Below are positions 7,674-11,430 of a stretch of 14,615 bases of DNA, piece after piece. The stretch lies in contig PWWF01000397.1 of the NCBI GenBank assembly GCA_003561595.1, positions 1 through 14,615 on the forward strand, written 5' to 3'. The DNA comes from Paracoccaceae bacterium. GTDB lineage: Bacteria > Pseudomonadota > Alphaproteobacteria > Rhodobacterales > Rhodobacteraceae. Positions within the stretch are counted from its first letter, which is position 1. Every line of letters begins with the position of its first letter. Made by a program: the position numbers and the translations under genes. Below the pieces are notes generated by a model. It made no database searches and was not told the origin of the DNA. It saw only the letters and a program-made list of their open reading frames with translations.

Positions 7674-7701
7674 TTGAACGGCCCGCGTGCTTGGCTTACA
7701 T
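7674..7701 (+). promoter_or_regulatory. Possible sigma-70 promoter of the def-fmt operon, giving a near-leaderless mRNA
   Basis: TTGAAC (7674-7679) and TTACAT (7696-7701) are 16 bp apart, in the short divergent gap. The expected initiation point, about 7 nt past the -10, is 7708-7709. The def start codon is at 7711, with no Shine-Dalgarno before it, which is what a leaderless transcript would look like. Confidence 0.4.
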
Positions 7702-7710
7702 CGCCTGATC

Positions 7711-8232
7711 ATGAGCCTGCGTCCCATATTGATCCACCCTGATCCGCGCCTCAAGAAGCGCTGCGCCCCGGTCGAAAGCATCACGCCCGAGATCGGCAAG
7801 CTGGCCGAGGACATGCTGGAGACGATGTATGATGCCCCCGGTGTGGGGCTGGCCGCACCGCAGGTCGGTGTGCTGACGCGCCTGTTCGTGATGGATTGCG
7901 TGAAGGAAGAGGGGGCCGCGCCGCACCCGATGGTGCTGATCAACCCCGAGATCGTCAGCACCTCGGATGAGGTGAACACGTATGAGGAAGGCTGCCTCTC
8001 GATCCCCGAACAATATGCCGAGGTGACGCGCCCCGCGCGCGTAGTGATGCGCTGGACAGGTCTGGATGGCGCGCGGCTGGAAGAGGAATTCGACGGCCTC
8101 TGGGCGACCTGTGCGCAGCATGAGCTGGACCATCTGGACGGGCGTCTGTTCATCGACCATCTGGGCGCGATCAAGCGCGGGATGATCACCCGCAAGATGG
8201 CCAAGCTGAAGCGCGAGAAGGCGCGGGGGTGA
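7711..8232 (+). CDS. def: Peptide deformylase
   Basis: This enzyme removes the formyl group from the N-terminal methionine of nascent proteins at the ribosome exit. The 173-residue protein has all three family motifs. [10 protein letters not shown] (44-53) is motif I. EEGCLSIP contains the metal-ligand Cys95. QHELDH contains ligands His137 and His141 and the catalytic Glu138. The start at ATG 7711 gives the standard N-terminus MSLRPILIHPDPRLKK. An in-frame GTG at 7687 would add eight unconserved residues. It is the first gene of def / def-like / fmt; its TGA overlaps the next gene's GTG start by 4 nt (GTGA), implying translational coupling. Confidence 0.97.
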   Translation: MSLRPILIHPDPRLKKRCAPVESITPEIGKLAEDMLETMYDAPGVGLAAPQVGVLTRLFVMDCVKEEGAAPHPMVLINPEIVSTSDEVNTYEEGCLSIPEQYAEVTRPARVVMRWTGLDGARLEEEFDGLWATCAQHELDHLDGRLFIDHLGAIKRGMITRKMAKLKREKARG

Positions 8233-8726
8233 GCGTCCGGCGCTGCATTCCATGGCCCGACCCGCGCCCGCGCCGCGGAGCAGACCCCGTGGCCGTGATC
8301 ACCGATGAGGTGCGGGCAATCTGGGCCGACATGATCGACACGATGGAAGCAATGCCTGGGGTGGGGCTTGCCGCGCCGCAGATCGGGGTGATGCGGCAAC
8401 TGGCGGTGGTCGATGCCTCGGACACGCGCGGGCAGGCCGTGCGCATGGCGAACCCGGTGGTCCTGCATGCAAGCCACCAGATGCGCCCCCATGACGAGGC
8501 CAGCCCCAACCTGCCCGGCGTCTCTGCCCGAATAGAGCGCCCGCGGGCCGTGACAGTGCGGTTCCTGAACGCGGATGGCGCAGAGGAAGAGCGCGATTTC
8601 GTGGGGCTCTGGGCCACAAGTGTGCAGCACCAGATCGACCACCTGGCCGGGCGGATGTATTTCGACCATCTGGGCCGTGTGAAACGCGACATGCTGCTGC
8701 GCCGCGCGCGTAAGGTGGGTCGATGA
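8229..8726 (+). CDS. Peptide deformylase-like protein, probably catalytically impaired
   Basis: The 165-residue protein is clearly homologous to deformylase along its whole length. Motif [11 protein letters not shown] (44-53), is intact. Motif II reads EASPNLPG where active enzymes have EGCLSIP, so the metal-ligand Cys is Ser92. Motif III reads QHQIDH rather than QHELDH: both His ligands remain (134 and 138) but the catalytic Glu is Gln135. Losing both a metal ligand and the general acid/base makes normal deformylase activity unlikely. The reading frame is intact, so the protein is probably kept for another purpose, such as binding or an accessory role. The start is GTG 8229, overlapping the def stop. 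The last five residues (RKVGR) and the TGA come from a REP palindrome that also holds the fmt start; the two genes overlap as ATGA. It is often annotated simply as def. Confidence 0.9.
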
Positions 8727-8737
8727 CCCACCCTACG
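8709..8737 (+). repeat. REP element 1, at the def-like/fmt junction
   Basis: GTAA (8710-8713) is followed by GGTGGGT (8714-8720), a 5-nt spacer and ACCCACC (8726-8732). The flanks CGTA and TACG extend the palindrome to nearly 29 bp with one mismatch. Read on the other strand the element begins GTAG-GGTGGGT. It matches three further copies near the RAYT gene but has a spacer one base longer. The spacer contains the fmt ATG and part of the stop codon of the preceding gene. Confidence 0.82.
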
Positions 8738-9646
8738 ACACGGTTGCGCGTGGTGTTCATGGGAACGCCCGATTTTTCGGTCCCCGCGCTGGAGGCCCTG
8801 CATCGTGCGCATGAGATCGTCTGCGTCTATACCCAGCCGCCACGCCCGGCAGGGCGCGGCAAGCAGCCCCGCCTGACACCCGTTCATGCGCGCGCAGACG
8901 CGCTGGGCCTGCCAGTGCGCCACCCGATCTCGCTGAAAGGGACAGAGGAGCAGGCGGAGTTGGCAGCGCTCGAGGCAGATGTCGCCGTCGTGGTGGCCTA
9001 TGGGCTGATCCTGCCGCAACCGGTTCTGGACGCGCCGCGCTTCGGCTGCCTGAACATCCATGCGTCGCTCTTGCCACGCTGGCGCGGGGCGGCGCCCATT
9101 CAGCGCGCAATCATGGCGGGCGATGCGCAGACGGGCGTGTGCATCATGCAGATGGAGGCGGGGCTAGATACCGGGCCGGTCCTGCTGCGCGCTGCAACAC
9201 CGATCACCGAGGCCGACACCGCGCAGCATCTGCATGACCGGCTGTCCCGGATGGGGGCAGAACTGATCGCCGAGGCGCTGGCCAGGCTGCCGGAATTGAC
9301 CCCCGAAGTGCAGTCCGACCACGGCGTGAGCTATGCGGCCAAGATAGACAAATCCGAGGCGCGGGTGGACTGGTCCCGCCCGGCGCGCGAGGTCGCGCGC
9401 CAGATACGCGGGCTGTCGCCCTTCCCCGGGGCGTGGTGCGAGGCTCCGTTCGGGCGGCTGAAACTGCTGGATGCGCAGGCGGTTGAGGGGCAGGGCACAC
9501 CCGGGCAGGTGCTGGACGGGCTGACAATTGCCTGCGGCGAAGGGGCGGTTGCCGTGACGAAGGTGCAACGCGAGGGCAAGCGCGTGCTCGCTGCCGAGGA
9601 CTATCTGCGCGGGACGGACGAACTGCGCGGCTGCATCCTGTCGTAA
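8723..9646 (+). CDS. fmt: Methionyl-tRNA formyltransferase
   Basis: Fmt transfers a formyl group from 10-formyltetrahydrofolate to Met-tRNA(fMet), making the initiator tRNA. The 307-residue protein has the N-terminal Rossmann domain starting [18 protein letters not shown]. The active site is [18 protein letters not shown] (catalytic Asn and His), with the Asp of [10 protein letters not shown]. The C-terminal tRNA-binding domain begins around [15 protein letters not shown]. Starting at ATG 8723 gives the usual few residues before the first strand. An internal ATG at 8759 would delete that strand. The first residues (MTHPT) are encoded by REP element 1, whose TAAGGTGG (8711-8718) serves as a near-consensus ribosome-binding site. 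The TAA stop lies in REP element 2. The gene partners def functionally and positionally. Confidence 0.97.
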
Positions 9647-9666
9647 GGTGGGTGGCAACCCACCCT
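9643..9666 (+). repeat. REP element 2, containing the fmt stop codon
   Basis: GTAA (9643-9646), GGTGGGT (9647-9653), spacer GGCA and ACCCACC (9658-9664) follow the same pattern as the other copies. The TAA of GTAA is the fmt stop codon. GGGTGGC (9650-9656) can alternatively pair with GCCACCC (9670-9676), so two exclusive hairpins are possible here. Confidence 0.85.
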
Positions 9667-9723
9667 TCGGCCACCCTCGATAATTTACCGCTGGTTAAAG
9701 ATGATCGGGTTAGCCTTTAGGCC

Positions 9724-10236
9724 ATGCCGGAGTATCGTCGTCGCCATGTGCCCGGGGGAAGCTATTTCTTCACGGTGAATCTCGAAGACCGGGAATCGCG
9801 TCTGCTGGTCGAGCAGATCGATATCCTGCGCGGCGCTTATCATTCGGTCTGCAAAGAGCATCCGTTCACCACCCAGGCCATCGTGATCCTGCCGGACCAT
9901 ATTCACGCTGTCTGGACCTTGCCGCCGGGTGATGCGAATTTCTCCACCCGCTGGAAGAAGATCAAGGCCCGGTTTTCGCGTGCGGTTCATTCCAGGGGGC
10001 TGGGATACGGCGTATCATTATCGCCAAGTCGCATAAGCCGGGGCGAGACGGGACCGTGGCAGAGGCGATTCTGGGAACACACGATCCGCGATCAGGCGGA
10101 TCTTGCCCACCATATTGCCTATTGCCACAACAACCCGGTCTGGCACGGGCTGGTTTCCGCGCCCGAGCAATGGCCGTATTCCAGTATCAAGCGATGTAAG
10201 GTGGGTGCCAACCCACCCGCTGTGTCGGGCGGCTGA
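9724..10236 (+). CDS. REP-associated tyrosine transposase (RAYT, Y1_Tnp/IS200-like)
   Basis: The 170-residue protein belongs to the single-domain Y1 HUH nuclease superfamily. The start MPEYRRRHVPGGSYFFTVNL is the typical RAYT N-terminus. ILPDHIHAVW contains the HUH metal-binding pair His59 and His61. PWQRRFWEHTIRD and HIAYCHNNPVWHGLV are the C-terminal RAYT signatures; Tyr133 is the likely nucleophile. RAYTs cut single-stranded REP hairpins next to a short guide sequence. Four matching palindromes lie within 1.5 kb, two of them flanking this gene and one in its 3' end. Residues 158-165 (CKVGANPP) are encoded by that REP copy, so the native C-terminus may have been replaced. No insertion-sequence ends or partner orfB are present, which fits a domesticated single-copy RAYT. 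No clear ribosome-binding site precedes ATG 9724. Confidence 0.92.
   Translation: MPEYRRRHVPGGSYFFTVNLEDRESRLLVEQIDILRGAYHSVCKEHPFTTQAIVILPDHIHAVWTLPPGDANFSTRWKKIKARFSRAVHSRGLGYGVSLSPSRISRGETGPWQRRFWEHTIRDQADLAHHIAYCHNNPVWHGLVSAPEQWPYSSIKRCKVGANPPAVSGG
10196..10218 (+). repeat. REP element 3, inside the RAYT 3' end
   Basis: GTAA (10196-10199), GGTGGGT (10200-10206), spacer GCCA and ACCCACC (10211-10217). It is in the coding frame of the transposase and supplies eight of its last thirteen codons. It forms an inverted pair with element 4, with 18 bp between them, the arrangement called a BIME in other bacteria. Confidence 0.85.
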
Positions 10237-10259
10237 GGGTGGGTTCACACCCACCTTAC
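10237..10259 (-). repeat. REP element 4, between RAYT and metK (inverted copy)
   Basis: On the minus strand it reads GTAA (10259-10256), GGTGGGT (10255-10249), spacer GTGA and ACCCACC (10244-10238). It sits between the ends of two convergent genes: 4 nt past the metK stop and immediately after the RAYT stop. The hairpin may act as a terminator or 3'-end stabiliser for either mRNA; no T tract is present. Confidence 0.85.
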
Positions 10260-10263
10260 AAGA

Positions 10264-11430
10264 TCACACGTTCTTTTTCAGCGTATCGACCAGATCCGTC
10301 CGCTCCCACGAGAACCCGCCATCCGCTTCGGGCGCCCGCCCGAAATGACCATAGGCCGCAGTGCGCGCATAGATCGGGCGGTTCAGGCCCAGATGGGTGC
10401 GAATGCCCAGCGGGGTCAGGTCCATTGACTGCGCGATGACCTGTTCGATCGCCTCATCCTCGACCTGGCCGGTGCCATGCGTATCGACATAGATCGACAA
10501 GGGCCGCGCAACCCCGATCGCGTAGGAGATCTGCAGCGTGCAGCGCCGCGCCAGCCCTGCCGCGACCACGTTCTTTGCCAGATAACGTGCCGCGTAGGCC
10601 GCCGAACGATCCACCTTGGTCGGGTCCTTCCCTGAAAAAGCCCCGCCCCCATGCGGGGCCGACCCGCCATAGGTATCGACGATGATCTTGCGCCCGGTCA
10701 GCCCGGCATCGCCATCGGGCCCGCCGATCACGAAGGTCCCTGTCGGGTTCACCCACCATTCCGTCCGCTCGGTCAGCCAGTCGGCGGGTAACACCTCGCG
10801 GATATGCGGCTCGACAATGGCGCGTATATCGTCCGAGCTTTGCGTCGCATCCGCATGCTGGGTCGAGAGCACAAGCTGCGTCACCTCGACCGGCTTGCCG
10901 CCCTCATAGCGCAGCGAAAGCTGGGTTTTCGCATCGGGCCGCAGGCTCGGTTCGGCACCGGATTTCCGTGCTTCGGCCAGTCGGCGCAGGATGGCATGGG
11001 AATACTGGATCGGTGCGGGCATCAGATCGGGCGTTTCATCCACGGCATAGCCGAACATGATGCCCTGATCACCGGCCCCGTCCCGTGACACGCCCTGCCA
11101 GATATGGGCGGATTGCTCATGCAGGAAATTCAGCACATGGCAGGTGTTCCAGTGGAACTTTTCCTGCTCGTACCCGATATCCTTGATGCAGTCGCGCGCA
11201 ATCTGGGGGATGCGGCCCATGTAATCCTTCAGCCGGTCGGGATCGCTCAGCCCCACCTCACCGCCAATAACAACGAGCGATGATGTCGCAAAGGTCTCAC
11301 ACGCAACACGCGCGGTTTCCTCTTCTGCCAGCAGCGCATCCAGCACAGCATCCGAGATACGGTCGCAGACCTTGTCGGGGTGCCCTTCGGAGACGGATTC
11401 CGAAGTGAAAATGTAATTCTGCCGCGCCAT
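10264..11430 (-). CDS. metK: S-adenosylmethionine synthetase
   Basis: MetK makes SAM, the main methyl donor, from methionine and ATP in the cytoplasm. The 388-residue protein is full length with the family signatures in order. [16 protein letters not shown] is at the N-terminus, with the ATP-binding His in [17 protein letters not shown] follows in the first third, then the P-loop-like [16 protein letters not shown] around residues 258-273. The start is ATG 11430-11428, preceded by GGGCAGGC, a modest ribosome-binding site. It lies 115 nt downstream of the esterase gene on the same strand. That gap has an AT-rich patch (about 11480-11520) that could hold its promoter, but I could not place clear -35/-10 elements. 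The 3' end abuts a REP hairpin. Confidence 0.98.

Follow-up and report, generated by a model that had tools for sequence, protein, structure and literature searches.

A RAYT gene with GTAR-headed REPs in a Paracoccaceae genome: REP stems that appear to change in place and a possible lasting role of RAYT in hairpin binding

The window (the whole analysed stretch, 14,615 nucleotides, of contig PWWF01000397.1 from a Paracoccaceae bacterium, genome G000) carries a REP-associated tyrosine transposase (RAYT) gene with its cognate REPs, an arrangement that is almost certainly a REPtron as far as identity alone is concerned. Comparison with genomes of the same genus led us to a broader reading, to which we assign a probability of roughly 0.7: this REPtron consists of old REP sites, with stems that evolve in place, and of a RAYT whose lasting role is to bind the REP hairpin. 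The family itself is best read as the known RAYT/REP kind in a GTAR variant.

The coordinates and profile score of the gene (Table 1) confirmed the initial annotation, which had described a complete RAYT gene surrounded by four palindromes, and the matches of the neighboring genes to TIGR00460 and TIGR01034 verified its placement between fmt, located upstream, and metK, which converges from the downstream side. When aligned to E. coli TnpAREP (4er8; alignment E-value 3.2e-38), the HUH (DHIHAVW) and Tyr/Asn (YCHNNP) motifs were intact, resulting in the residue signature HHYN-WQR with all of the GTAG-contacting W, Q, and R present. NF047646 matched nothing besides the window RAYT in the draft genome, which measures 3.3 Mb. 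No Pfam-A family was found for this RAYT at an E-value of 1e-3; because PF01797 (Pfam Y1_Tnp) misses it, this profile was rejected as a RAYT detector and NF047646 was used instead. Assignment to an IS200/IS605 insertion sequence was also rejected, given the single NF047646 match in the genome and the lack of Pfam families. The profile score over the cut-off, the HUH, Tyr, and Asn residues, the single copy, and the flanking REPs, which are abundant in the genome, all correspond to a RAYT. A separate Y1_Tnp gene was also encoded in the genome (L031; G000 C167:1080-1436; PF01797, 115 bits). Judging from its intact HUH and Tyr motifs, the window RAYT should be able to nick beside a REP, and it would be expected to recognise the hairpin and its GTAR head when binding single-stranded REP.

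Table 1. Location of the RAYT gene, REP elements, and adjacent genes in the window, and of RAYT genes with R, L, L, S at the catalytic positions (RLLS) in related genomes.
Feature	Location	Strand	Remarks
RAYT (REP-associated tyrosine transposase), 170 aa	9724..10236	+	NCBIfam NF047646 180.1 bits, cut-off 80
REP element 1	8710..8736	+	GTAA-GGTGGGT-CGATG-ACCCACC-CTAC; palindrome match 8710-8732
REP element 2	9643..9664	+	GTAA head; upstream REP of RAYT gene
REP element 3	10196..10217	+	GTAA head; within 3' end of RAYT ORF
REP element 4	10238..10259	-	GTAA head; inverted; just past metK end
Peptide deformylase homologue (def)	8229..8726	+	PF01327; last codons and stop inside element 1
fmt, methionyl-tRNA formyltransferase	8723..9646	+	TIGR00460 282 bits
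metK	10264..11430	-	TIGR01034 492 bits; convergent on dimer of elements 3 and 4
RLLS RAYTs	L057:1495-2079; L059:1492-2049; L060:1357-1941; L061:1357-1941; L062:1495-2079		GGTGCGT-type palindromes on both sides

Four copies of GTAA-GGTGGGT-N4/5-ACCCACC were found in the window, where 200 shuffles gave a mean of 0.00. Element 1 spans the def/fmt overlap, containing the def TGA and the ATG of the fmt ORF (8723, in the loop), and it reads GTAG on the opposite strand, as the initial annotation had noted. Two peptide deformylase genes lie in tandem upstream of fmt (7687-8232 and 8229-8726). The fmt stop codon is the TAA of the element 2 head; a stop supplied by GTAA ahead of a REP arm was also found for fmt in G024, G013, and G036, and one supplied by GTAG ahead of a one-mismatch arm in G011. 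Elements 3 and 4 form a dimer with heads outward. Element 1, which overlaps def and fmt, is not intergenic, and element 3 lies inside the RAYT ORF. REP heads supplying stop codons and RAYT 3' ends captured between REPs have already been described, in the available portions of PMC3733652 and PMC2817692, respectively.

A search of the whole genome supported the proposal of a cognate REP family, with 54 strand hits of the GTAR form (29 + 25) and none in the reversed control; a looser pattern gave 78 hits in the genome versus 4 in the control. The genome-wide family is made up of approximately 42 tagged GTAR-GGTGGGT...ACCCACC palindromes. The fetched loci contained 44 distinct palindromes, of which 10 were tagged by GTAA only, 21 by GTAG only, 12 by both, and 1 by neither, counted by a script that missed two reverse-oriented copies of a GGTGGGATATCTCCCACC variant. 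This stem variant occurs in three copies on a single contig (G000 C279; L100). GTAG was the commoner head tag in the fetched loci (33/55, versus 22/55 for GTAA). GTAA had initially been regarded as a conserved guide present on one side only. The one-sidedness holds for window elements 2-4, which have a GTAA head without GTAG on the opposite side, but not genome-wide, where heads are GTAR, and a conserved GTAA is not borne out in the closest relative, G024, in which the ortholog of element 4 (L034) has a GTAG head.

The palindromes are short, of high copy number, located mostly at gene 3' ends, and found also as dimers, as REPs are. Convergent or co-directional genes, assigned by a home-made gene caller, were found at 35/43 elements of G000 and 57/61 fetched elements of G036. 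Because a GTAG/GTGG tetranucleotide does not accompany every copy (window elements 2-4 have GTAA), the family was filed as a REP variant. A head ending in A is still unusual compared with published REPs: degeneration is reported at head positions 2 and 3 in the accessible text of PMC3733652, and 'GTAA' as a word start is absent from the main text of PMC8266576, PMC3733652, PMC2817692, PMC3686654, and PMC6006769.

All 12 doubly tagged palindromes of G000 were mixed, with GTAA and GTAG on opposite strands, and the same was true of 10/10 doubly tagged copies in G024; for seven of these, the site carries a double tag in G000 as well. Matched states were common among the doubly tagged fetched elements of G036 (24/43), G013 (11/27), and G011 (13/19), with Fisher values versus G000 of 0.0005, 0.009, and 0.0001, respectively, when copies are treated as independent, which they are not. 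Since a head base and the tail base facing it can pair, GTAG/CTAC, mixed, and GTAA/TTAC can be read as a single pair in its G-C, mismatched, and A-T states, respectively. Such pairing cannot explain single-tag GTAA (10/31); single tags in G012 were GTAG in 24/24. An RNA-level cause of the strand choice, in which the sense strand would carry the G-U form, was rejected for want of bias: among co-directional mixed copies only, sense heads were GTAG in 4 and GTAA in 3 for G000, and GTAG in 1 and GTAA in 4 for G036.

Among 37 screened genomes of the genus, 12 had NF047646 matches, 11 of them over the cut-off. Four of these 11 had GGTGGGT REPs and six had GGTGCGT REPs, none had both, and G020 had neither. 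Tagged GGTGGGY strand hits numbered 54 in G000, 45 in G024, 40 in G012, and 37 in G017, and were missing from all six GGTGCGT genomes, while tagged GGTGCGT hits numbered 83 in G011, 117 in G013, 125 in G014, 19 in G025, 115 in G029, and 155 in G036, and were missing from the former four. In the 26 genomes without a RAYT over the cut-off, including G003 with its frame-broken RAYT remnant (L064), only 0-21 strand hits were found with both stems summed (at most 21 in G030, 14 in G027, and 8 in G007); the palindrome is thus not equally common without a RAYT, in line with the initial pairing of the two. G030, without a detected RAYT, nevertheless had more hits than the RAYT-bearing G025. The RAYT gene lies between fmt and metK in G000 and G024, elsewhere in G012 and G017, at a third place in five genomes described below, and apart from these in G025. 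In G036 and G012, fmt and metK are adjacent without a RAYT, indicating that the gene either arrived in the G000/G024 line or was lost in others. In a check of distant RAYTs (20 loci from named genomes, 1.2 kb searched on each side), GTAG-GGTGGGT hairpins were found beside the RAYT in L035 and L051 (Sulfitobacter) and in L037, GGTGGGC hairpins in L045, and in L034 hairpins of the type present in the window; the remaining 15 loci had no hairpin of these types within 1.2 kb on either side.

Several REP sites are orthologous between genomes, and at these shared sites each genome shows solely its own stem, that of the resident RAYT. From G000 to G024, 34/43 elements were shared, 32 of them within 20 nt, with four A/G head changes. 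From G000 to G036, flanks were found for 19/43 elements, 15 of which had a REP nearby (12/15 within 20 nt); several G036 REPs were credited to two or three G000 elements (dimers, and the three window REPs past fmt), so that the 15 correspond to 9 sites and 11 distinct G036 REPs. Flanks of 18 of the 28 G013 elements were found in G036, 17 with a REP within 110 nt, and 16/18 found flanks of the 28 G011 elements had one. The remaining comparisons gave 9/12 for G000 to G012 (43 elements), 8/8 for G012 to G036 (25), 8/11 for G013 to G011 (28), 8/13 for G000 to G013 (43), 4/13 for G000 to G011 (43), and 4/5 for G012 to G013 (25). These fractions are biased upward, as loci were fetched around perfect REPs and only sites inside fetched loci are visible; in addition, for some G000 sites the aligned locus in G036, G012, G013, or G011 had no REP close by.

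The def-fmt site was assessed with loci picked regardless of REPs (30 of the 35 genomes with a strong fmt hit). A palindrome was present there in 8/9 RAYT genomes versus 0/21 others (Fisher 1.5e-6, kinship not corrected), without GTAR tags in G012 and G017. The exception, G011, had a REP-like palindrome with one arm mismatch at the fmt end only. The CRATG loop was kept at this site, and one stem pair was G:C or C:G according to the RAYT type.

Shared sites of this kind could also arise if each REP type had inserted independently at the same few open places, with no in-place conversion. The concentration at gene 3' ends noted above agrees with such hot spots, and so does the C59 site, where the heads of the dimer point inward in G000 but outward in G036, a difference that fits separate insertions. 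Independent insertion is nonetheless the less likely course, as offset, tag side, and dimer layout were identical at several sites, e.g., C80 and C136, the latter being occupied in G000, G036, and G012 by an inverted dimer whose flanks align while stem and loop are particular to each genome, and as the CRATG loop was kept at def-fmt beneath both stems. Three REPs exactly 367 bp apart, resembling a REP-carrying tandem repeat, were observed in G036 (C24:340962-341725; L135).

In five of the six GGTGCGT genomes (G011, G013, G014, G029, and G036), the residues H, H, Y, and N of the RAYT are replaced by R, L, L, and S. These RLLS proteins, encoded at one common locus, lack the histidine pair of the HUH motif together with the catalytic tyrosine and the metal asparagine, and do not qualify as active RAYTs. 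They formed one clade with support of 99/98 in a tree of 149 columns whose bootstrap had not settled. Head-contact W, Q, and R, residues named in the part of PMC6006769 available, were kept, except for a change of Q to A in G029. Over 10 pairs, dN/dS was 0.13-0.29, while two intact pairs gave 0.15 and 0.16 (home-made NG86 on the first 160 alignment columns, the core). In an AlphaFold2 model of P0001, which is 98% identical to the G036 protein, the mean pLDDT was 80.6, with 113/194 residues above 90, and the closest structure was 4er8 (TM 0.81 by target). No second NF047646 match and no PF01797 match was found in the five RLLS genomes, four of which are 71-88% complete and could be missing a second RAYT; G036 is rated 100%.

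The label for HUH loss changed five times on the RAYT tree, at least three of these changes being forced by supported branches, and among the best 120 of 3309 homologues, at least one HUH histidine was missing from 15, the RLLS group accounting for six of these. Degenerate catalytic residues were also seen outside RLLS in L058:1465-1938 (G025), P0032, P0076, P0094, P0099, and P0101; these proteins keep the head-contact W, Q, and R, P0101 alone having K for Q.

We lean towards the view that a catalytically dead RAYT is kept as a REP-hairpin binder and that fixed-site REPs evolve in place to match the resident RAYT. On the fmt tree, G030 was sister to the RLLS genome G029 (100/100), and G011 fell outside the other four RLLS genomes, this being a single-gene tree. 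G029 has the RLLS RAYT, 115 GGTGCGT hits, and the def-fmt palindrome; in G030 no RAYT was found, GGTGCGT hits numbered 17, and the def-fmt palindrome was absent, although this assembly is 86% complete and the gene may be missing from it. If the binder view is true, this contrast would mean that even a dead protein maintains its REPs.

A selfish element, in which REPs are copied by an active RAYT and the RLLS genes are dead, with leftover REPs that have yet to decay, is a doubtful alternative. The low REP counts in genomes without a RAYT and the RAYT remnant in G003 would suit it, and the available text of PMC3686654 proposes that REPs are sustained only by an active RAYT and decay after its loss. 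The RLLS loss, however, is common to five species with pairwise dS of 0.52-1.31 and the low dN/dS given above, and a perfect-arm REP stood near its G036 place for 17/28 G013 and 16/28 G011 elements. With 16 unconstrained positions and a G036-G013 pS of 0.38, the chance of all matching is about 0.0005, in elements that were chosen for perfect arms. It is highly improbable, despite the 3'-end location, that these palindromes have nothing to do with the RAYT and serve as ordinary terminators or as hairpins stabilising mRNA, since REP presence and stem type track the RAYT, the GTAR tetranucleotide beside the arms is conserved, and inspection of the sequence found no T run after any of the four window stems.

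In the reading favored here, the REP sites would be long established, with stems that adapt in place to the RAYT of the genome. The lasting role of that RAYT would be binding of REP hairpins, with effects on expression or on how DNA is organised at the 3' ends of genes, and transposition would presumably be rare, or absent in the RLLS clade. From the sequences compared, it seems somewhat probable that RAYT binding, and not only cleavage, maintains REPs. The joint switching of dozens of dispersed stems might result from RAYT-driven replacement, selection on compensatory changes, or preferred-site turnover. According to the available portion of PMC8266576, TnpAREP binds single-stranded REP and the tetranucleotide serves cleavage-site choice; the guide rule is shown there for Marinomonas only, whereas for the proteins of E. 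coli and S. maltophilia this was attempted without success. Under this published rule, CT would be selected by GTAG and, if the rule is extended, TT or TA by GTAA. The GTAA/GTAG mixture allows a direct test of the rule at the fourth head base. The exact function of RAYTs is called unknown in the accessible text of PMC8049555. A literature search, covering titles and the starts of abstracts and few subscription papers, recognised no paper on dead or exapted RAYTs and found nothing on concerted evolution of REPs. If the reading is correct, RAYT/REP would be a DNA- or RNA-binding regulatory system able to outlive transposition. A single genus in which RAYTs are intact, dead, or absent while REP sites can be compared offers a natural experiment on why RAYTs are retained so long as single genes and on whether REPs need RAYT catalysis.

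Among known systems, REPtrons as presented in the available text of Nunvar et al. (2010; PMC2817692), such as that of Haemophilus parasuis (GTAGGGTGGGTCTTGACCCACC), have a REP stem nearly identical to that of the window, and share with it a single-copy RAYT beside REPs and a REP at the RAYT 3' end; unlike them, G000 has GTAA in 22/55 tags, varied short loops, and mixed tags in every doubly tagged copy. E. coli TnpAREP (4er8) was the sole PDB sequence match at an E-value cut-off of 1e-3 for both the window RAYT and RLLS P0001, and the window RAYT has its head-contact residues W94, Q95, E100, H101, and R104. As far as described in the part of PMC8266576 available, a stem bulge is required in E. 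coli REPs and no change in GTAG is tolerated, whereas the matched arms of the window family are perfect and the head is GTAR. The Orthoswitch of Nunvar, Licha and Schneider (2013; PMC3686654, available text) likewise couples a shift in REP class among relatives to the RAYT. In that proposal, copies of the new class spread as those of the old class decay; in the present genus, several chromosomal places are common to the two classes, and the change affects both arms. Finally, TnpAY1 proteins without the motifs were omitted as probably non-functional in the accessible part of PMC6006769; like the RLLS proteins, they belong to the RAYT family but lack HUH/Y motifs. The RLLS clade differs from such proteins in being vertically kept, under purifying selection, and accompanied by 83-155 REP strand hits per genome.
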